Part shown: positions 6,406 to 18,046 of the stretch, in pieces
Numbering within the stretch: position 1 is the stretch's first letter
Layout: every line of letters starts with the position of its first letter
Assembly: GCA_030586155.1 (NCBI GenBank)
Contig: CP130741.1
Location: 2,226,680 to 2,290,679 of the forward strand
Direction of reading: 5' to 3'
DNA: 64,000 bases
From: Eubacteriaceae bacterium ES3
Lineage (GTDB): Bacteria; Bacillota; Clostridia; Eubacteriales; Eubacteriaceae
Made by a program: the position numbers and the translations under genes
Notes under the pieces: model-generated
Told to the model about the DNA's origin: nothing
Database searches by the model: none
The model's input: the letters and a program-made list of their open reading frames with translations, nothing else

Positions 6406-9400
6406 TTATTTTTCTTTGGACAGATTTTTCCTCGCGGTTTCCATCATCAACTTAATTCGATTTAGCTGATTCACTTCGCTGGCACCTGGATCATAATCGA
6501 TGGGGGCTATGTTCGAACGCGGATATTTCTCCCGAATCGGCTTAATCATCCCCTTCCCCATTACGTGATTAGGCAGACAGGCAAAAGGCTGAACACAGAC
6601 AATATTTTCAACTCCTTCTTCAATCAGTTCCATCATTTCAGCCGTTAAGAACCAACCTTCACCACCCTGGTTTCCAAGCGAAATCAACTCACTTGCTTTA
6701 GCAGCCTTCTTCTCAATTGTTGATGGTGCATAAAAATGTTCACTGTTGTTTAGTGCTTTTTTCATTTCTTTACGGAAGCGCTCCAAACTGTGAATAACAA
6801 AGCGGGAGATTTTCATGGAACGTCTTGAACCTGATAATTCCTCATATTTAAAAACCTGATTATAAGCACAATACAAGAAGAAGTCCATTAGTTCCGGCAT
6901 AATAACTTCCGCCCCTTCATCTTCCAGTACTTTTTGAAGATTATTGTTAGCGGTCGGATGATACTTAACCAGAATTTCGCCAACAATTGCCACCTTAGGC
7001 AGATTTTTGGGGATTCTCGGGAGTTGATCAAATTCTTCGACTATCTGAACAACATTTCTTTTGAATCGACTAACATTCCCATCCTGAATATTTTTCTTTG
7101 CTTTCTTTCTCCAGTAATGATAAAGCGCAAGTGTCGATCCACTATATCGTTCATAGGGACGAGTCGCGCTCACAACCCGCTGAAACAAATCACCATATAC
7201 GACACCAATCAGCAATTTTTTAAGTAGAGGTAAAGAAATCTTAAATCCAGGGTTTTTTTCGATACCGGTAGCAGAAAGCGCAATCACCGGCACCTGGGAC
7301 ATACCTGCTGAATCCAATGCTTTTCTAATGAAGGACACATAATTGGAAGCCCGGCAGGGACCACCTGTCTGGGTCATCATAACTGAAACATGATCAAGAT
7401 CGTAATTACCCGATTTTAAAGCCGCCATGATCTGACCTGTTGTAATAATTGTCGGATAACAGGCATCATTGTTGACATACATCAGCCCTTCATTAATAGC
7501 CGCGTTGTCAACACTGGGCATTATTTCGACATTGTATCCTGAGCTTTCCATGGCATCCTGAATCAGGTCAAAATGCACCGGTGACATCTGAGGGACCAGT
7601 AAGGTATGGGTTTTTTTCATTTTTCGGGTGAAAATCACCCGTTTATGAAGTGCTTTAGGGGTAACCGGATGATTACTAACTTCTCTTTCGCTCATTGCTG
7701 CTTTTAATGAACGCAGTCTTATTCTGATTGCCCCAAGATTATTAACCTCATCAATTTTTATTAAGGTATATATATTACCTTTGCTCTCAAGAATTTCCTG
7801 AGTTTGTTCTGAGGTAACCGCATCCAGCCCACAGCCAAAGGAAGTCAGCTGAACCAGTTCCAGGAAAGGACTGTCATTCACCACCATTGCGGCCCGATAT
7901 AGACGGCTATGGTATTTCCACTGATCCAGCACCCGTAAACGGTCATCTTTTTCTTCTTGCGCCAGGTGAGCGATGGAATCCTCTGTCAGGACCGCCATAC
8001 CCAGGGACGTGATGATATTATCAAGGCCATGATTGACTTCAGGATCAAGATGATATGGGCGACCAGCAAGAACGATTCCTTTTTTACCGGTTTGTTTTAG
8101 AAAAGCCATGGTCTCTTCGCCTTTTCTTTTTATATCCTCTTTGAACCGCTCTTTCTCTGCCAAAGCAACCGCCATTGCGGTAACTACCTCCTGCTTATCA
8201 ACACCTAAATCCTTAAATACCTCAATCAGACGCTCTTCTAATCGGACTGGATGATTAAGCGGCAGAAAAGGATTCAGATAGGTAACTCGGTTTAAATCGT
8301 CCTGATTATGTTTTATTGTCTCTGGATAAGACATAACAATAGGGCAATTATATGTATTGTCTGCTTTTTCAAATTCTTCCTCTTCATAAGGAATACATGG
8401 ATAGAAAATAAGCGAAACACCAGCATTAATCAATTCCTGAATATGTCCATGAGCCAATTTAGCCGGATAGCAAACGGATTCTGATGGAATGCTTTCCATT
8501 CCTTTTTCATAGACCCGTCGGTTGGATTCTGGTGATAAAACCACCTGATAACCCAGTTTTGTGAAAAAAGTATGCCAGAAAGGATAATTTTCGTAGAGAT
8601 TCAGAACTCTAGGAATTCCAATTTTCCCTCTTTCAGCCATATTTTCGTCTAATGAAACGTAATCAAACAAACGCTTATACTTATATTCAAATAGATTGGG
8701 TAATTCCTTATTTTTAGCCCCAGATCCTTCACCAATTTCACAACGATTCCCAGTAATGTGGCGGGATTTATCATTAAAACGGTTTATGGTTAAAAGACAA
8801 TTATTGGTACATCCACCGCAACGACGATGACTGACATCTACCTGAAAACCCTCAAGCTGTTTATTTGACAAAAGGCTTGTCGTTTCGCCAGGTAAATAAG
8901 CTTCTCTGGCAATCAGTGCCGCACCAAAAGCGCCCATCAAACCGGCAATATCAGGACGAACTACTTCTTTTCCCGTTATTTTTTCAAAGGCTCTAAGTAC
9001 CGCCTGATTATTAAAAGTCCCTCCCTGGACCACAATCGATTGTCCCAATTCCTTAGGATCATGAATTTTAATAACTTTCTGTAACGCATTTTTAATCACC
9101 GAGTAGGACAAGCCAGCGGAAATTTCTCCCACCTCAGCCCCTTCTTTCTGAGACTGTTTGACTTTTGAATTCATAAAAACAGTACAACGCGTCCCTAAAT
9201 CCACCGGATGTTTTGCCATTAATGCTTCATTCACAAATTCATCCATGGAAAGGTCCAGTGATCTGGCAAAAGTTTCTAGAAATGAACCGCAGCCAGATGA
9301 ACATGCCTCATTGAGAATAATGCTATCAATTGTACCGTTTTTAATCCTCAGACACTTCATATCCTGACCACCGATATCCAGAATAAAATCAACCTCAGGT

Positions 9401-10635
9401 TCGAAAAAACGTGCACCTTTATAATGAGCAATGGTTTCAATTTCTCCAATATCTACTTTAAGGGCTTTCTTAACCAAAGATTCACCATAGCCAGTCACAG
9501 TCGCCTTGCCGATTTTAACGTCAGAAGGCAACATTTCATAAAGTTTCTTGAGAATAACAATGGATTGTGTTAATGGGCTTCCTTCATTGCTGCCATAATA
9601 ATCGAATAACAGTTCTCCATTCTCACCAATCAATACCGCTTTTGTCGTTGTCGAACCAACATCGATTCCCAGAAAAGCAATTCCCTGGTATTCAGACAAT
9701 TCTTTTCGTTTTACTGCCCGAGATGCATGACGCGCTTTAAAAGCTTCCAGGTCATCAATGTCAGAAAAAAGCGGTTCCAGGCGGTCCACTTCATTTTCAA
9801 TACTTACGTCAAGCTGACTCACGGCCGATACCAAATCCGAAAAAGCCGTCGGATTAATATCCTTAGCCAGAAAAGCAGCACCCATAGCAACAAACAAATT
9901 TGAATTTTCCGGAAACAAAACTTCTTTATCCGTTAATTTAAGTGTTTTAATAAACCGCTCACGTAGTTCTGAAAGAAAATAGAGAGGGCCTCCAAGAAAG
10001 GCAATATTTCCGCGAATAGGCCTGCCACAGGCGAGTCCACTAATCGTCTGGTTCACCACAGCCTGAAAAATTGAAGCAGCAATATCCGATTTCTCTGCCC
10101 CCTCATTGATTAAGGGCTGAATATCAGTTTTAGAGAAAACTCCACACCTAGAGGCGATCGGGTAAATTGTTGAATGTGTTTTTGCCAACTCATTCAAACC
10201 CTGTGCATCTGTTTTTAGAAGTGTTGCCATCTGATCGATAAACGCTCCGGTTCCTCCGGCACAGGTTCCATTCATTCTTTGTTCGATATTGCCATTAAAA
10301 AAAGTAATCTTGGCATCTTCTCCACCAAGCTCAATGGCTACATCAGTCTGAGGAATCAGCTCCTCTACTGCTCGAGTTCCAGCTACCACTTCCTGTACAA
10401 ACTCTATTCCCAGCCACTGGGAAATCATCAATCCGCCTGAACCGGTTACGCAAACTCGAGCCGATAAATCTCCCATTTCTTTATATGCTTCATTAAGAAG
10501 TCCAACTATAGTGTTTTTTATGTTTGACAAATGTCGTCTGTAGGCTTGATAAACAATTGTTTCCTCTTTATTGAGAATTACCATTTTAATCGTTGTGGAA
10601 CCAATATCAATACCCATTTTATAATTATTTTTCAT
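6406..10635 (-). CDS. Giant 2-hydroxyacyl-CoA dehydratase activase (tandem BadF/HgdC ATPase domains + DUF2229)
   Basis: A 1409-residue cytosolic protein. Two ASKHA-type activase domains follow each other: the first (about 5-260) has GIDIGSTT, and C125 ([10 protein letters not shown]) and C164 (SRCGVFS), at positions like the cysteines that hold the bridging 4Fe-4S cluster in HgdC; the second (about 320-580) has [21 protein letters not shown] and [11 protein letters not shown] Cys cluster [10 protein letters not shown] comes near 608, then a DUF2229 dehydratase-like region ([20 protein letters not shown]-type turn). The family drives ATP-dependent electron delivery to difficult reductions or dehydrations. 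No dehydratase A/B subunits or CoA-transferase lie beside it, so the substrate is unknown. Same-strand neighbour upstream is the FGGY kinase, 119 bases away; linkage is uncertain. Confidence 0.85.
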
Positions 10636-10754: not shown

Positions 10755-12278
10755 TTAAATTTTTATCAATTTAAATAACGGTTTTAAACGACCGTACATT
10801 TTTTTATAAATATCATTATATATTTTACCATATAATGCATTAATATTAGCATCGGGATAGAAAATATCTTTTTTTCTTACCATTCCAGCAGATGCTTCAT
10901 CTAGTGTTTTATAAACACCTAAACCCACAAAAGCCGCTATCGAAGCACCCAAACCCGTTGTTTCACGAGTCTGCACCCGATAGACCGGACGATTAAAAAT
11001 ATTCGCCATAATCTGCATAATTTCATCACTTGATGAGCCTCCGCCAGATAGCCCAATCTCAGTAATAGCTACCCTGGTTTTTCCTTCAATTCGCTCAATT
11101 CCCTGCAGCAGGGCAAAGCCAAGGCCTTCAATAATTGCCCGATAAATATGCCTGCGGTCATGTCCCTCTGTCATCCCAATCAGTGCGCCTCTAGCTTCAG
11201 GATGAAAGGCCTCACGACCCCAATAGGGTTGATGAATTATGCCCCCAGCTCCAGGTTTCGTCTCTTGTAAATACCCTTCAAGCTGCACAAAAGCGTCCTT
11301 CTGATTTAGATGAGATAAAAAGTTTTTGACAAACCAGTCAACCATCCAAAAGCCGTGATAGATGGTAACCTCAGGGTTATAAGCTTGTTTTGAAACTGCC
11401 GGGAAGGAAGGGTAAAAAGGATAAATTTCCACGTAGCGGTCAGTTGTCACTTCAATTGTTGCCTGAGTCCCGAGAGAAACACTGGCAGTTTCCGGTGTTA
11501 GTGCCCCAATCCCCAGGGTTTCACACCCCTTATCGGTGCCGGAGGCAATGACTTGGCAAGGCTTTTCGAATCCCAGTTCCTTTGAAACTTCGTCGGTGAG
11601 AAGCCCGATAACCTGACACGAATCAATCAGATCAAAGCGCATATCAGGTTCAATATTGAGAATAGCTGCCTTAACATCTGTTTTTTTGCACCATTCTTTT
11701 TTCTTGGTATTAAAAGGAACATGACCAGCTACGGATGAACGGCTCTCAACTATCCGTCCAGTTAAACGGCTGATAAAATAAGTAGAAAGAAAGACAAGTT
11801 TATCAGCTTTCTCCCAGATTTCAGGCTCGCATACTTTAATCCAGTGAGCATGACAGGTCCGACTAAAAGAGTTTGCTGTAGCTGTAAATCCAATCACTTT
11901 AAAAAGCAGAGCATAAGGCCAGGGAAAAGGAAGTGGCTTAGTGAGTTTCCGACGATCAAGCCAACTGATAAAATCCCTTAACGGCCTGCCTGTTTTATCA
12001 ACTACGGTGATAACATCACGCTGACAGGCAATAGTTAACGCTTTGATTTTCGAAAAGGCTTCAGGTTTAGTTTCTTTCATTTGGCGAACCACTGAAACCA
12101 GGGCATTCCAAAACATATCTGGTGCAGCTTCCCTGAAACTTTCTTTTAGCGAATAGTATCCAGAAAATATGGCATTTGTCTTTCCTAGTTCATTTCCTAA
12201 AGCATCAAACACTATTGCTCGTATTCCACCAGTTCCGCAATCAATTGCTAGTACCAGCTGTTCTTTCTTTTCTTCCAA
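10755..12278 (-). CDS. FGGY-family carbohydrate kinase, TTG start
   Basis: About 507 residues. The N-terminal phosphate loop LAIDCGTGGIRAIVFD and the C-terminal ATP-binding segment ITEIGLSGGGSSSDEIMQIMANIF are those of FGGY sugar/polyol kinases (xylulokinase-like group); the middle has ASGTDKGCETLG. The substrate cannot be read from sequence. An upstream in-frame ATG at 12326 cannot be the start because a -10 box (12309-12314) lies downstream of it; TTG at 12278 has GGGAG seven bases ahead. It sits next to the TIM-barrel and Tm-1-like genes but behind a terminator and with its own promoter. Confidence 0.86.
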   Translation of the reverse strand: MEEKKEQLVLAIDCGTGGIRAIVFDALGNELGKTNAIFSGYYSLKESFREAAPDMFWNALVSVVRQMKETKPEAFSKIKALTIACQRDVITVVDKTGRPLRDFISWLDRRKLTKPLPFPWPYALLFKVIGFTATANSFSRTCHAHWIKVCEPEIWEKADKLVFLSTYFISRLTGRIVESRSSVAGHVPFNTKKKEWCKKTDVKAAILNIEPDMRFDLIDSCQVIGLLTDEVSKELGFEKPCQVIASGTDKGCETLGIGALTPETASVSLGTQATIEVTTDRYVEIYPFYPSFPAVSKQAYNPEVTIYHGFWMVDWFVKNFLSHLNQKDAFVQLEGYLQETKPGAGGIIHQPYWGREAFHPEARGALIGMTEGHDRRHIYRAIIEGLGFALLQGIERIEGKTRVAITEIGLSGGGSSSDEIMQIMANIFNRPVYRVQTRETTGLGASIAAFVGLGVYKTLDEASAGMVRKKDIFYPDANINALYGKIYNDIYKKMYGRLKPLFKLIKI

Positions 12279-12308
12279 TTTGTTTCTCCCGTCCACAAAG
12301 TCTTCATT

Positions 12309-12336
12309 ATTATAACAAAACATCACTTACAAGCAA
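12309..12336 (-). promoter_or_regulatory. Sigma-A type promoter of the FGGY kinase
   Basis: On the minus strand TTGCTT (12336-12331), a 16-base spacer and TATAAT (12314-12309). Predicted transcription starts near 12302, 24 bases ahead of the TTG codon, which fixes the kinase start. Confidence 0.6.
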
Positions 12337-12367: not shown

Positions 12368-12398
12368 ATAAAAAAAGACCCCCGTTTTGGAGGTCTTA
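12368..12398 (-). terminator. Terminator of the Tm-1-like/TIM-barrel operon
   Basis: On the minus strand AAGACCTCC, loop CAAAA-type, GGGGGTCTT and then seven T. It comes 16 bases after the TIM-barrel gene stop and separates that operon from the FGGY kinase. Confidence 0.8.
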
Positions 12399-12413: not shown

Positions 12414-13233
12414 TTATTTGATGTTAATCTTTTTGAAATCTTCAACCTGTTTAGTAATGGCGACTTCTGTTGGGAGACGTTCAATACTTGAAGCACCAAA
12501 GAAACCGCAAACGCCGGTGGTACGATCCAATACATATTCGGCATCCTCTGGTTCAGCAACCGGCCCACCGTGGACAATGACCAGTACATCAGGATTTACT
12601 GCTTTTCCGGCATCGCAGATTTCCTGTGTAAGCTTAACGCAGTCATCAAGGGTTTTAGCAGATTCTGCACCAATACTTCCTTTAGTTGTTAACCCCATAT
12701 GGGCAACCAGAACATCTGCACCGGCTTCTGCCATTTTTTTTGCATCCTCCACATTAAATACGTATGGAGTCGTCACCATATCCAGCTCATGAGCTTTTCG
12801 AATCATTTCAACTTCCAGATCATATCCCATATTGGTTTCTTCAAGATTTTGTCTGAAGACGCCATCAATCAGACCAACTGTCGGGAAATTCTGTACTCCT
12901 GAAAATCCTACTTCTTTCAACTGTTTTAAAAATACATCCATATCACGGAAAGGATCAGTTCCACAAACTCCCGCCATCACTGGCGTATCTTTAACTATGG
13001 TCAGCACTTCTTTGGACATATCCATTACTATTGCGTTAGCATCGCCATATGAAAGCAGTCCTGCTAATGATCCTCTTCCAGCCATCCGATAACGTCCTGA
13101 ATTATAAATAATTATCAGGTCTACTCCACCAGCCTCTGCACATTTAGCAGATATACCAGTCCCAGCGCCAAGAAACGCCTTTTTCAGCCTGTTCTTTTAG
13201 TCGTCTCAATACTTCTTCACGTTTAATTGCCAT
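12414..13233 (-). pseudogene. Phosphoenolpyruvate hydrolase family TIM-barrel protein, frameshifted
   Basis: Translation from ATG 13233 gives [18 protein letters not shown] and then falls out of frame at a run of five A (13180-13184) and stops at TGC TAA. Dropping one A restores [19 protein letters not shown] and joins the long frame that begins [11 protein letters not shown] at 13085, for 272 residues in all. The family motifs are intact: [32 protein letters not shown] and [11 protein letters not shown]. The family (also called TIM-barrel signal transduction domain) has no proven bacterial substrate and usually sits beside a Tm-1-like gene, as here. The lesion may be real or a base-calling error in a homopolymer. 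Starting at 13085 would lose the first strand of the barrel. Confidence 0.85.
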
Positions 13234-13304: not shown

Positions 13305-14513
13305 CTATTTTTCCAGAAGGTCTAATAATTTTTTTGCCATCGCAATAGCAAACGATTCATCATTGATATCCGTATCCATTTCAATCAGTTCAACATTAGA
13401 AGCAATATTTTCTTTAAGTTGTTTAAAAAGTTCCGCATCTTCGTTTGGGCCATAGAAAGGTGCACCTTCAACGTCAATAGCGGATACTCCTTTTAAAGGT
13501 AGAAACAGGGCTGTCGGACCAGTTGCCAAACTCAGTTTATCAGCAATGATTTTTCCCATTTCCGAACACTCTTGAACAGTTGTTCTCATCAAAGTTACAT
13601 TTGCATTATGTTTATAGAGATTTCTATTTTTATATTTTTCCGGTACCGTTTCAATCGCCCCAAAGTTAACCATATCCAAAGCGCCAACTGAAACGACTTG
13701 TGGAATGCCCGCTTTTCCCGCAGCCTCAAGTCGGTGAGGACCCGCTGAAAATACACCACCGGCAACTTCATCACACCATTCTGTCGTTGTTGCATCAAAG
13801 ACACCCTTGATAAAGCCTGATTCTACCAGACTTTCCATTGCCATCCCACCAGCTCCGGTAGCATGAAAAACCAGTACTTCATAACCTTGAGACTCCAGAT
13901 ACTCTCTGGCTGCTGTCACACATGGAGTGGTCACACCAAACATCGTTGCTGCCAATAAAGGTTTTTCTTCTTTTAATTCCGGCACTTCAAAAGAAACCAT
14001 TCCAGCAATCGCATGGGCTGCGTTGGCAAGTATTTGATTAGAAATCCCATTTATTCCAGAAATATCTACCACAGAATACATCATTGTGATATCTTTTTCG
14101 CCAACATAGGATCTGGTGTCACCAGATGCAACTGTTGAAACCATTATCTTCGGAAATCCTACTGGCAATGCCCGCATTACATAGGTTCCAATGGTTGTTC
14201 CTGCAGAACCTCCAAGACTGATAATTCCCTGAATTTTATTTTCTTCCAAAAGTTTTAGCACTTTTTTTCTGGCTCCGGCCATCATCACATCGATACCCAT
14301 TCCACGATCGTGCTGTTCATTCAAAGCCGCCAGTGAAGATCCTCCTGCCTCAGCTACTTCTTCAGCCGAAATATCTGGCGTAAAATAAGGCTCACCAATA
14401 ACTCCACAATTTACGGTAGTCGTTGTTAAACCCTGTTTTTCAATCAGCTCTTTGACAAATTGAAATTCCTGTCCTTTTGTGTCAAAAGTTCCCACAAGTA
14501 CAACATTTTTCAT
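13305..14513 (-). CDS. Tm-1-like ATP-binding domain protein (UPF0261)
   Basis: A 402-residue cytosolic protein with two Rossmann-like halves. ATP-binding landmarks are VVLVGTFDTKGQEF at the N-terminus, SLGGSAGTTIGT near 115, and VFHATGAGGMAMESLVESG in the second half, as in the N-terminal domain of the tomato Tm-1 virus-resistance protein. The start is ATG 14513, preceded by AGGGGGA; an ATG at 14561 lies within the sigma-54 promoter and cannot be used. It is the first gene of an operon with the TIM-barrel gene, 71 bases downstream. The biochemical role of bacterial members is unknown. Confidence 0.9.
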   Translation of the reverse strand: MKNVVLVGTFDTKGQEFQFVKELIEKQGLTTTTVNCGVIGEPYFTPDISAEEVAEAGGSSLAALNEQHDRGMGIDVMMAGARKKVLKLLEENKIQGIISLGGSAGTTIGTYVMRALPVGFPKIMVSTVASGDTRSYVGEKDITMMYSVVDISGINGISNQILANAAHAIAGMVSFEVPELKEEKPLLAATMFGVTTPCVTAAREYLESQGYEVLVFHATGAGGMAMESLVESGFIKGVFDATTTEWCDEVAGGVFSAGPHRLEAAGKAGIPQVVSVGALDMVNFGAIETVPEKYKNRNLYKHNANVTLMRTTVQECSEMGKIIADKLSLATGPTALFLPLKGVSAIDVEGAPFYGPNEDAELFKQLKENIASNVELIEMDTDINDESFAIAMAKKLLDLLEK

Positions 14514-14548
14514 AAATATTCCCCCTGTTCCTTTGATGACAACAATAA

Positions 14549-14566
14549 ATGCAAGTTCCATGCCAA
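14549..14566 (-). promoter_or_regulatory. Sigma-54 (-24/-12) promoter of the Tm-1-like operon
   Basis: The minus strand reads TTGGCATGGAACTTGCAT, matching YTGGCAC-N5-TTGC with one difference. The GG (14564-14563) and GC (14552-14551) are ten bases apart, as RpoN requires. Predicted start is near 14539, giving a leader of about 25 bases. Confidence 0.85.
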
Positions 14567-14614: not shown

Positions 14615-14677
14615 GTGAGAAAACGTTTTCTCAAAGCCTTTCTCACTGAGTAATATTTTCCCAATACGGGAAAATAT
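14615..14677. promoter_or_regulatory. Probable upstream activator sites for the sigma-54 regulator
   Basis: An 18-base perfect palindrome TGAGAAAACGTTTTCTCA (14616-14633) is followed by an inverted copy of its arm, TTTCTCAC (14640-14647). A second inverted repeat, ATATTTTCCC-N5-GGGAAAATAT, occupies 14653-14677. They lie roughly 75-140 bases ahead of the predicted start of the Tm-1-like operon, the usual place for enhancer sites. The second repeat could instead be an inefficient terminator of the regulator gene. Confidence 0.55.
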
Positions 14678-14683
14678 AATTAG

Positions 14684-14911
14684 CTAGCTTTGCAGTTCAT
14701 ATTTCTTAATCTTATTATAGAGAGTACGACGAGATATTCCCATTCGCTTAGCAGCCATTGACCTATTCCACTGGCAGGCATCTAAAATCTCCATAATATA
14801 GGCACATTCCACCTCTTCTTTGCTGCCAACAACTTCTGTCAGAGACATATTTTTGTTAGGCTTTGCCTGAACCGCTGTTTGTTGTATTTCAAGATCTTCC
14901 GGTCTGATGAA
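14684..14911 (-). pseudogene. Fis-type HTH tail of the sigma-54 activator, behind an amber codon
   Basis: Directly after the TAG at 14914-14912 the same frame stays open for 75 codons to TAG 14684. It begins FIRPEDLEIQQ and ends with a Fis-like helix-turn-helix (CQWNRSMAAKRMGISRRTLYNKIKKYEL). No ribosome site and start suited to separate translation is obvious; an internal ATG in the linker lacks a good Shine-Dalgarno. The tail is therefore expressed only by read-through, if at all. Confidence 0.85.
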
Positions 14912-16498
14912 CTACCCATCACTTAAAATAAAGGCCCGTTCAATAATATGCTTAAGTTCTCTTACATTCCCCGGCCAATTGTAGCACATTAAATTATCTA
15001 CTGCATCAGGTGTCAGTCTTTTAGTTTCAGACTGATATTTGTCTTGAAACTCTTTCAAAAACTCCCGACATAACAAAGGTATATCTTCCGGATGATGCCG
15101 TAATGGTGGAGTATTGATTTCAATAACATTCAGACGATAATACAGATCTTCACGAAAATGATTTTGTGCTACTGCTGTTTTTAAATCAAGGTTAGTTGCG
15201 CAGATAATACGCACATCAACGTAAATTGTCTTTTCTCCGCCAACCCGCTCAAATTCCTGCTGTTGGATAATTCTTAAAACTTTCGACTGCAGTTCAAGCT
15301 CCATTTCGCCGATCTCATCAAGAAACAGCGTTCCATGATTGGCTAATTCAAATTTCCCAATTCTTCTTTTATCAGCCCCTGTGAAAGCCCCCTTCTCATG
15401 ACCAAATAATTCACTTTCCAGAAGGTTAGGTGGAAGCGCCGCACAATTTACCTTAATTAAAGGCCCGAGGTAACGTTTACTGTTAAAATGCAAGGCTTTC
15501 ACCACTAATTCTTTGCCAGTACCACTTTCCCCCTGAACCAGGACATTCACATCCTTATTGGCAACTTTATTGATAACCTCATACATATTTTGCATCAGGC
15601 TGGATTGGCCGACAATTTCATCAAAGCCCCTTTTCCGCTGTAATTCTTTTTTTAAATGCTTATTTTCCTGTTTTAATTTATAATAGTTTTTAAATTTATC
15701 GGTGGTCTCTGAAATTGCCAGTTCAGTGGGAATTCGTTCAAAACTTGACCCACCGATATATCCGATGGCTTGGGAATTCTTGTAAAAATAATAGGCGTCC
15801 TCGGGTGAATTAATCGGTCCACCATAAATCATCTTAAAGCAGCTTGGATTGATACGATCCGCTTCTAAAAATATTTCATCGGCCATTTCCAGACACTCAT
15901 TTATGCTTGAAAATACTTTTCCGGATTTTTCTCCTCCTCTTGTCCAGCCAAAATGAGCGCAGATCACATCGACCCCAATTTTTGCCATTCTATTGGCCTG
16001 TTCTCGTGAAAAAACAAAAGCAATTGTAAAAAAGTCAGCTGCCACCGCTTTTTGCATAAATGCTATCTCTTGCTCATATCCAAATCCATTTTCTTCCAGA
16101 TATTGTCTGAAAACACCATCTATCAAACCGACTGTGGGAAAGTTAGTTACCCCGCCAAATCCTTTAGAAACTACTTTTTTAAGTAGCTCCTCATGAGTGT
16201 AATTAGGATCAGTAGCATTAATGCCGGCAATCACTGACTGTTCCTTGAAGCGAGGTAGAATTTCTTTACCTGAAAATTCAAAGACCAGTTCATTACTATT
16301 TACAAAAGAAAGCATACAGCCAATTGATGGCTGGCCAGCCACCCGAAATCTTCCGGCACTTAAGGCCAGCAGAAAATCTGCCCCTCCTTTAATTGCCTGA
16401 TTGGCAAAGAGACCTGATCCTACTGCTACACCAATCACCGGTTTATTCATCTTCAAACTGTTTCTGATTTTTTTTAGAATCTTTTCCCGTTTATTCAT
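14912..16498 (-). CDS. Sigma-54-dependent activator with enzyme-like TIM-barrel sensor, truncated before its HTH
   Basis: 528 residues from ATG 16498 (AGGAG ten bases ahead). Residues 1-270 form a TIM-barrel of the phosphoenolpyruvate hydrolase family, with [14 protein letters not shown] near 119-132, IYGGPI and GGSSFERIPTE, the same motifs as the enzyme gene at 12.4-13.2 kb. A charged helical linker (272-290) leads to an AAA+ domain with Walker A GESGTGKE (323-330), the sigma-54 loop GAFTGA (370-375), Walker B LFLDEIGE and WPGNVREL. A TAG at codon 529 cuts it off right after FILSDG, where DNA-binding tails normally follow. It faces the sigma-54 promoter of the Tm-1-like operon, its probable target. 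Either a nonsense mutation, a sequencing error or a decoded amber; DNA-free activators of this class can act in other bacteria. Confidence 0.88.
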   Translation of the reverse strand: MNKREKILKKIRNSLKMNKPVIGVAVGSGLFANQAIKGGADFLLALSAGRFRVAGQPSIGCMLSFVNSNELVFEFSGKEILPRFKEQSVIAGINATDPNYTHEELLKKVVSKGFGGVTNFPTVGLIDGVFRQYLEENGFGYEQEIAFMQKAVAADFFTIAFVFSREQANRMAKIGVDVICAHFGWTRGGEKSGKVFSSINECLEMADEIFLEADRINPSCFKMIYGGPINSPEDAYYFYKNSQAIGYIGGSSFERIPTELAISETTDKFKNYYKLKQENKHLKKELQRKRGFDEIVGQSSLMQNMYEVINKVANKDVNVLVQGESGTGKELVVKALHFNSKRYLGPLIKVNCAALPPNLLESELFGHEKGAFTGADKRRIGKFELANHGTLFLDEIGEMELELQSKVLRIIQQQEFERVGGEKTIYVDVRIICATNLDLKTAVAQNHFREDLYYRLNVIEINTPPLRHHPEDIPLLCREFLKEFQDKYQSETKRLTPDAVDNLMCYNWPGNVRELKHIIERAFILSDG

Positions 16499-16933: not shown

Positions 16934-18046
16934 TTAAATAAATTTCAGAAAACCCTCCATACTGTTCGCCTTTATTATAGCCGGACAATCCACTGAAAGT
17001 TGCTCATTTAATATTTTTTCTAAACAGTCCGGGGCGAATTTTTCTGTTTCAAAATGACCAGCATCCAGAACCCAAATCCCCAATTCCTCAGCCCTTTGAC
17101 CGTCGTGATATTTGAGATCTCCGGTCACAAACACATCAGCTTTTAATGCTTTGGCTATCGATAAAAGATCAGCACCAGCACCAGTACAAAGGGCAACTTT
17201 TTTGATTCTTGCTGGCCTTTTTCCCGCTTCACGTAAAATTTTAATGTTCAAAGCTTTTTTTAGCTGTTCAATCCATATATCAGAATTGCAGGAATCTTGG
17301 AGTTCACCAATCCTCCCCAGGCCGTGGATCGCTTCCATTTTTGTTTTTAGCGGATAAACATCATAAGCCATGGTTTCATAGGGATGCATTTTTTTAACCT
17401 GATTAATAGTTTTTTCAAGTGACCTTTCATGAACTATTGCTTCAATGCGTAGCTCTTTTACAGCCTCAAACTCGTTAACTGTTCCGATAAAGGGATCTGC
17501 CCCCGTCAGCGGACGAAAACGTCCTGTACCAGAACATGAAAAACTGCATGAATCATAATTGCCAATTGCACCGGCACCAGTTTTTCCCAACGCATTTAGT
17601 ATTTCTTTTTCATGGGTTGCAGGAACAAATACTGCCAATTTAACATAATTTTCGACAAAATTTTCCAGCGGTTTCATGCTTTTTAATCCCAGTTTATTGC
17701 CAACAAAATCGTTAAGACCAAATCTTGCCAAATCCAGATTAGTGTGAGCTGAGTAAACACTGATATTATTCTGAATTAACCTTCTGATCATTCGGCCTTT
17801 TAAAGTGTCACAAGACAGCGTTTTGAGTCCGCTGAAAATAAAAGGATGATGACTGATAATCAAGTCGACTTGTTCTTCTATCGCTTCTTCAATCACTGCT
17901 TCAGTAACATCAAGAGTCAGTATAATCTTCTCAATCATCTGACTGCGTTCACCCAGCATCAATCCCACGTTATCCCATGATTCTTGAAGATACCGCGGCG
18001 CAACTGTTTCAATCCCTTTTATAATTTGTTCAAGTCTGACAGCCAT
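16934..18046 (-). CDS. Nif3-like dinuclear metal-center protein (GTP cyclohydrolase I type 2 homologue)
   Basis: 370 residues, the long form of the Nif3/YqfO family with a PII-like domain inserted in the middle (about 135-245, containing HPYETMAYDVYPL). Metal ligands are seen in DLIISHHPFIFSG (His-His near 64) and in the C-terminal HFETEKFAP motif with GDLKYHDGQ. The family forms hexameric rings; its reaction is uncertain. It overlaps trmK by 28 bases and is the last gene of the dnaG-rpoD-trmK-nif3 operon. Confidence 0.92.
   Translation of the reverse strand: MAVRLEQIIKGIETVAPRYLQESWDNVGLMLGERSQMIEKIILTLDVTEAVIEEAIEEQVDLIISHHPFIFSGLKTLSCDTLKGRMIRRLIQNNISVYSAHTNLDLARFGLNDFVGNKLGLKSMKPLENFVENYVKLAVFVPATHEKEILNALGKTGAGAIGNYDSCSFSCSGTGRFRPLTGADPFIGTVNEFEAVKELRIEAIVHERSLEKTINQVKKMHPYETMAYDVYPLKTKMEAIHGLGRIGELQDSCNSDIWIEQLKKALNIKILREAGKRPARIKKVALCTGAGADLLSIAKALKADVFVTGDLKYHDGQRAEELGIWVLDAGHFETEKFAPDCLEKILNEQLSVDCPAIIKANSMEGFLKFI

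Follow-up and report, generated by a model that had tools for sequence, protein, structure and literature searches.

Among the closest described counterparts of the locus analysed here is the Tm-1-like pair, which combines UPF0261 with the TIM-barrel signal transduction (TBST) family (PEP_hydrolase-like, Pfam ID PF09370). The two families are described as fused in plants, mostly encoded by separate genes in bacteria and co-evolving (PMC5028733). The main text of that paper uses none of the words sigma, AraC and HTH. In the 64-kb window, by which we mean the whole stretch of DNA that was analysed, UPF0261 and TBST genes likewise adjoin each other. The host genome belongs to the genus Acetobacterium, and the pair is part of a three-gene cassette, in which a sigma-54 activator with a PF09370 sensor accompanies an operon encoding UPF0261 and a PF09370 TIM barrel (Table 1). 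Most of the TIM-barrel gene can be recognised with ease, its remainder matching the Mll9387 structure (PDB ID 2p10) at an E value of 3.3e-92 and positions 48 to 267 of the 267 positions of the PF09370 profile, with a score above the curated cut-off (365.1 bits versus 33.8). Set against the TBST family and 2p10, the gene of the window has a damaged start region and a broken frame.

Table 1. Features of the cassette and its surroundings, in coordinates of the window
Feature	Coordinates	Strand	Remarks
Acyl-CoA dehydratase activase-like protein	6406..10635	-	Intact flank; used for the tree
FGGY kinase	10755..12326	-	Open frame intact; remains in genomes without the cassette
Terminator-like hairpin with T tail	12375..12397	-	3' of the TIM-barrel gene; pattern match only
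TIM-barrel remainder, 251 codons (13169 to 12417) and stop	12414..13169	-	PF09370 PEP_hydrolase-like; frame differs from that of the start
Lesion where the two frames meet	13169..13171	-	11 bases net missing; 12 intact congeners compared
Five-A run (five T on the plus strand)	13180..13184	-	Native in-frame sequence (E-K), codons 17-18
TIM-barrel gene, first 21 codons	13171..13233	-	Original frame; 18 of 21 residues (85.7%) as in G010
UPF0261 / Tm-1-like gene	13305..14516	-	Open frame intact; PF06792 (1.9e-68), PF23189 (1.4e-97)
Sigma-54 type -24/-12 promoter-like site TGGCATGGAACTTGCA	14550..14565	-	Upstream of the UPF0261 gene; looks intact
Perfect 9+9 palindrome	14616..14633	-	Candidate activator-binding site; same 18 bases in G010
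10+10 inverted repeat, 5-base loop	14653..14677	-	Second candidate site; unlike the GGGCAATATT type of the relatives
Severed regulator end	14693..14911	-	Frame open; Fis-type HTH recognisable, HTH_8 (5.2e-17)
Amber TAG in the regulator	14912..14914	-	Sense codon in 12/12 congeners: K in 11, D in G009
Regulator up to the amber, 528 residues	14912..16498	-	PF09370 sensor, sigma-54 AAA+, most of the AAA+ lid
DUF34/NIF3 gene	16934..18046	-	Intact flank on the opposite side

The TIM-barrel gene starts with an ATG at 13233 on the minus strand, and the frame opened by this codon closes after 29 codons with a TAA (13146-13144). The break between the frames is found at 13170/13171, nine bases past a run of five A, where codons 22 to 25 less one base are missing. 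Frame 0 matches the protein of the congener G010 through residue 21, which is past the A run; from residue 26 on, it is the other frame that matches. Pairwise alignments with the 12 intact congeners give a net difference of 11 bases every time, placed as a single gap of 11 in five congeners, split into a gap of 5 and one of 6 in another five, and scattered in two (G001 and G003). The missing part belongs to the region before and within the glycine-rich loop. Behind the lesion, the remainder is 91.6% identical to G010 and PF09370 is recognised in 12414-13085 with an E value of 2.4e-109; a six-frame search extends the match to positions 19 to 267. A complete PF09370 domain is not encoded by any one open frame, with frame 0 ending at 29 codons and 11 bases net missing.

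A preliminary description of this DNA had attributed the break to the A run itself, reading five A in place of four. The five A are present on the coding strand in codons 17 and 18, as described, in the context GAA AAA GGC (E-K-G), but two of the 12 intact congeners have the same five A in frame, namely G009 (A. bakii) and G010, which makes the run native. What holds of the earlier claim is that the frame is broken, and broken near the place named; its position has to be moved to the 11-base lesion. In the same way, skipping one A does give a product of 272 residues, but the claim that this product is perfectly conserved does not hold: it falls short of the 275 residues of the intact G010 and G012 proteins and would mismatch them ahead of the GAGTG loop.

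The second lesion is the amber codon of the regulator, which was already noted in the preliminary description and which we confirm. The start position of the regulator was set by alignment with G010. The regulators of 12 congeners align along its length (that of G018 from residue 88), and none of the 12 has a stop in the aligned stretch around the amber position. The sigma-54 interaction domain of the AAA+ type is clearly present (PF00158, 1.5e-72), together with a GAFTGA loop. The C-terminal DNA-binding domain does not follow in the same frame without a stop, the HTH_8 match being located behind the amber. The two lesions lie within 1.8 kb of each other, and each is disabling when compared with the intact orthologues of the 12 congeners that have the gene, and the TIM-barrel gene and the regulator are probably both pseudogenes. 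The open frames agree with the earlier statement that two of the three cassette genes are damaged and the Tm-1-like gene is intact, the UPF0261 protein showing 81.6 to 83.8% identity to those of G010, G012 and G009.

The first 21.7 kb of the window are collinear with G010 and include 18 ORFs with a match. Two of these are antisense to a longer matched gene and were dropped; among the 16 retained, one of which is cut by the end of the window, only the TIM-barrel gene and the regulator are broken. Collinearity with G010 and G012 seems to end at about 21.7 kb. From there to 64 kb, no ORF matches were seen in the adjoining stretches fetched from these two genomes, apart from hits to paralogues. 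Terminator-like hairpin patterns such as the one 3' of the TIM-barrel gene are found seven times in the stretch, compared with 4.7 in shuffled sequence, and are weak evidence on their own.

The region upstream of the UPF0261 gene looks like that of an operon under sigma-54 control. The promoter-like site is the sole exact match in the window to the -24/-12 consensus TGGCAYNNNNNTTGCW, where 0.13 matches are expected. The promoter comparison covered 12 loci, G011 being left out; one locus (L031) ends before the UPF0261 gene, and in all 11 congener loci holding the site it is found in the orthologous place with no mismatch or one. With this conserved orthologous site, the operon is a candidate for sigma-54 dependence, and the gene for sigma-54 (rpoN) is present in the genome. 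The perfect palindrome is probably an activator-binding site, and the inverted repeat farther upstream is probably a second one.

Outside the genus, the same sensor barrel was seen with a different output. In all four regulators scanned, PF09370 is combined with an AraC-type HTH; these are found in Clostridium mobile (L047:3309-4541), in G022, a genome of the same family (L024:1339-2526), in Listeria aquatica (L049:3369-4496) and in Paenibacillus elgii (L068:6694-7917). The regulator of the window has the same sensor with a sigma-54 AAA+ domain and a Fis-type HTH as the output. The input module is retained and the output domain exchanged between Acetobacterium and the outside genera. Such an exchange of AraC-type and sigma-54 output is not mentioned in the literature found on these families and on sigma-54 with this domain, including the main text of PMC5028733. 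Among the papers listed in literature searches on the families, on Acetobacterium pseudogenes and on sigma-54 with the domain, none dealt with the cassette in Acetobacterium, as judged by title.

We compared the locus with 18 other Acetobacterium genomes. Twelve of them contain both a full TIM barrel and the sensor-type paralogue (cut by a contig end in G018), and a full TIM barrel is missing in six (G004, G006, G007, G014, G016, and G017), among which G007 retains a scrap. A search for UPF0261 covered 15 of the 18 genomes and found it in 11; the four genomes without it (G004, G006, G007, and G014) are exactly those of the six TIM-barrel-less genomes that were tested for it. Since its genes are missing together in sister species, the cassette is probably one functional unit. 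In G004, G014, G016, and G017, the locus consists of NIF3, 0.56 to 0.58 kb between the matches, the FGGY kinase and the activase, without a match to any of the three genes. The presence of the FGGY kinase in genomes that have no cassette means that it is not part of it. In G007, a 2.2-Mb congener, what remains between NIF3 and the activase is a scrap each of TIM barrel and FGGY kinase (L018 / L181), which represents an advanced stage of the same loss. G006 is the closest relative by activase identity (88.5%) and has the kinase and the activase preceded by other ORFs, with no NIF3 in the 9 kb fetched. The ORFs preceding kinase and activase in G006 (L176) look like a transporter, a nitroreductase and a regulator, as judged from their translations alone. 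The absences in G004 and G006 have to be read with genome completeness of 87% and 85%, respectively, and the G006 locus was seen without its NIF3 side.

On a tree of the activase, rooted with G025, the absences fall in four places, namely G004, the group of G014, G016, and G017, G007, and G006, and the genome of the window is a fifth and ongoing case of loss. Support is 1.0 for the grouping of this genome with G006, 0.99 for G014, G016, and G017, and 0.87 for G007 with G009. G004 is grouped with nine cassette-bearing genomes at 0.957, its exact place being weak (0.15), and G022, which belongs to another genus, branches between the pair of this genome with G006 and the remaining congeners (0.975). 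Being based on a single gene, with G002 left out, the tree is a guide only. As an alternative to repeated loss, the cassette could have been gained several times at this one place, but the scrap in G007 argues for loss. The natural absences also mark the borders of the cassette, with the regulator, UPF0261 and PF09370 inside and the kinase and the activase outside.

The damage amounts to one lesion per broken gene with little beyond it, and the partner gene UPF0261 is intact, which fits an early stage of decay. In comparisons of the TIM-barrel remainder with G009, G010 and G012, dN is 0.049 to 0.056 and dS is either 2.7, which is saturated, or undefined. Because dS is saturated, the recency of the damage is based on the small number of lesions and the low dN rather than on a dated test. 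Of 230 residues that are invariant in the relatives, 13 are changed in the remainder, mostly to similar residues. We also calculated the divergence between window and relatives divided by that among the relatives, which is 3.36 for the TIM-barrel remainder and 3.14 for the regulator before the stop; the 72 regulator residues behind the stop have the lowest ratio (1.37). The values for the other genes are 2.35 (UPF0261), 2.34 (kinase), 2.87 (activase), 2.61 (NIF3) and 2.91 (response regulator, two relatives only). The ratios of the broken genes before the stop, 3.36 and 3.14 against 2.34 to 2.91, are the highest of the set but too close to the others to give a clear signal of relaxed selection. 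The genome being a deep branch accounts for the lack of a clear acceleration.

Broken genes were also surveyed across the genome, with 20 stretches of 20 kb and the window compared against the ORFs of 45 stretches each from G010 and G012. Ten of these 90 reference stretches were picked beside the counterpart of the window, which is over-represented as a result. A strict filter flagged 3 of 75 places in this genome, and 3 of 114 and 4 of 114 in the controls between G010 and G012. The three flags are the TIM-barrel gene, a 23S rRNA read as protein (L104) and a match in L113, and the same 23S rRNA reference ORF accounts for one of the three flags in the first control. The regulator amber escaped the strict filter, whose sensitivity is therefore incomplete. 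The match at L113:18455-18805 is a second candidate broken gene, with 61.5% identity to a 150-residue ORF of G010 and an internal stop. In a cruder survey, 8 of 77 places were flagged here, compared with 16 of 116 and 10 of 119 for the two controls; many of these flags probably stem from natural ends being scored as stops. A survey with fewer references flagged 5 of 44. General genome decay or poor assembly was rejected as an explanation, broken genes in the sampled survey being no commoner than in the controls. A hypergeometric calculation gives about 0.003 for two broken genes among the three of the cassette, a rough and post hoc figure that is not used as a test.

The best reading of these observations is that a dispensable cassette, repeatedly lost in the genus, is in a recent and early stage of pseudogenisation. 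The preliminary description had suggested recent decay of a dispensable pathway, and the six of 18 congeners lacking a full TIM barrel, one of them with a scrap, and the single lesion per gene bear this out. In the intact state, the activator would sense a ligand through its own PF09370 barrel, and its HTH would bind the upstream repeats and drive the operon of UPF0261 and TIM barrel. The TIM-barrel lesion is predicted to leave a 29-residue product and to remove the first strand of the barrel along with part of the glycine loop. The amber would take the DNA-binding domain from the regulator, and an activator with no HTH would presumably no longer bind upstream, leaving the operon silent or nearly so. 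Selection on the operon would have stopped, and the cassette would be bound for full loss as in the sister species. We hold it to be very likely that the cassette is on its way to full loss in this manner, with two recent pseudogenes, an activator that is off the DNA, an operon silent or nearly silent, and selection ceased. The UPF0261 gene and the promoter-like site, which are still intact, count against the decay reading.

If a single extra A in the run, whether real or a homopolymer miscall, had broken the TIM-barrel gene, the frame would change near the run and skipping one A would rejoin the frames, as is the case; the alignments of G001 and G003, and only these, also put a gap of two bases in the run, with one of three bases in the opposite direction close by, and the score for G003 rises by 0.5 when one A is deleted (141.5 versus 141.0). 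The native state of the run in two intact orthologues speaks against this, as does the original frame, which continues beyond the run to residue 21; the removal of one A lowers the alignment score for the other 11 of the 12 relatives and still leaves a further deletion to be explained. We give an extra A next to no credence. Slippage or a miscall at the run, which had been named as points to check, is unsupported for the same reason, the run being native and the lesion a net 11-base deletion beside it, and since what is missing precedes and enters the glycine-rich loop, slippage at the run would yield no normal protein. Recoding of both genes, by ribosomal frameshifting and by stop readthrough, for example with pyrrolysine, could account for downstream parts that are well conserved or recognisable. 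No other orthologue in the start-region comparison changes frame there, however, the amber position is a sense codon in all 12 congeners, and a frameshifted product would still be short of the residues before the loop, which makes continued production of both proteins hardly believable. Pyrrolysine at the amber was tried and rejected, as the genome has no PylS above the cut-off (26.7 bits versus 178.15); in 14 control genomes the PylS model matches weakly in 13, and one match is above the cut-off.

Errors of assembly, or mutations fixed in one laboratory culture, would be consistent with two lesions within so short a distance that are known from one assembly of one strain, and clustered assembly errors had been offered as an alternative in the preliminary description. 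The lesions differ in kind, though, one being a net loss of 11 bases and the other a substitution to TAG, and neither has the form of a homopolymer length error; the 75 sampled places contain one other candidate, no more than the controls, and the absence of the cassette in several congeners makes real decay likely beforehand. An artefact thus appears improbable, if less so than the other alternatives. It is also very unlikely that a truncated product still functions. The regulator does keep its sensor and most of the AAA+ part, and an internal ATG at 13085 of the TIM-barrel gene would give 223 residues, but this piece is without the first 47 of the 267 profile positions, and sigma-54 activators normally need their HTH. 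Recent pseudogenisation remains the preferred reading, and with the position of the lesion corrected, slippage and homopolymer errors need not be sought at an A run that is native.

More tentatively, and with rather less than even confidence, we propose that the cassette forms a self-contained switch, the activator of the operon using a relative of the operon's own TIM-barrel enzyme as its sensor, with sigma-54 output in Acetobacterium and AraC-type output in the four outside regulators. Repeated loss would then mark a niche-dependent substrate, and the loss in this genome would have been caught in mid-course, with the activator and the enzyme going first. Acetobacterium species with and without the cassette offer a natural comparison for finding the role of the widespread Tm-1-like pair of UPF0261 and PF09370.

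Compared with the Tm-1-like pair, then, the window has one partner as a pseudogene and, in addition, a sigma-54 regulator with a TIM barrel. With the sigma-54 activators, or bacterial enhancer-binding proteins, the locus shares the PF00158 AAA+ domain, an encoded Fis-type HTH, and the -24/-12 site with upstream palindromes, whereas its sensor is a PF09370 barrel and its HTH is severed by the amber. In early-stage bacterial pseudogenes, each gene carries a single disabling lesion, further damage is slight and sister species have intact orthologues. The broken genes of the window agree with this in every respect, without a difference in kind, and the pseudogenisation seen here is of an ordinary kind.
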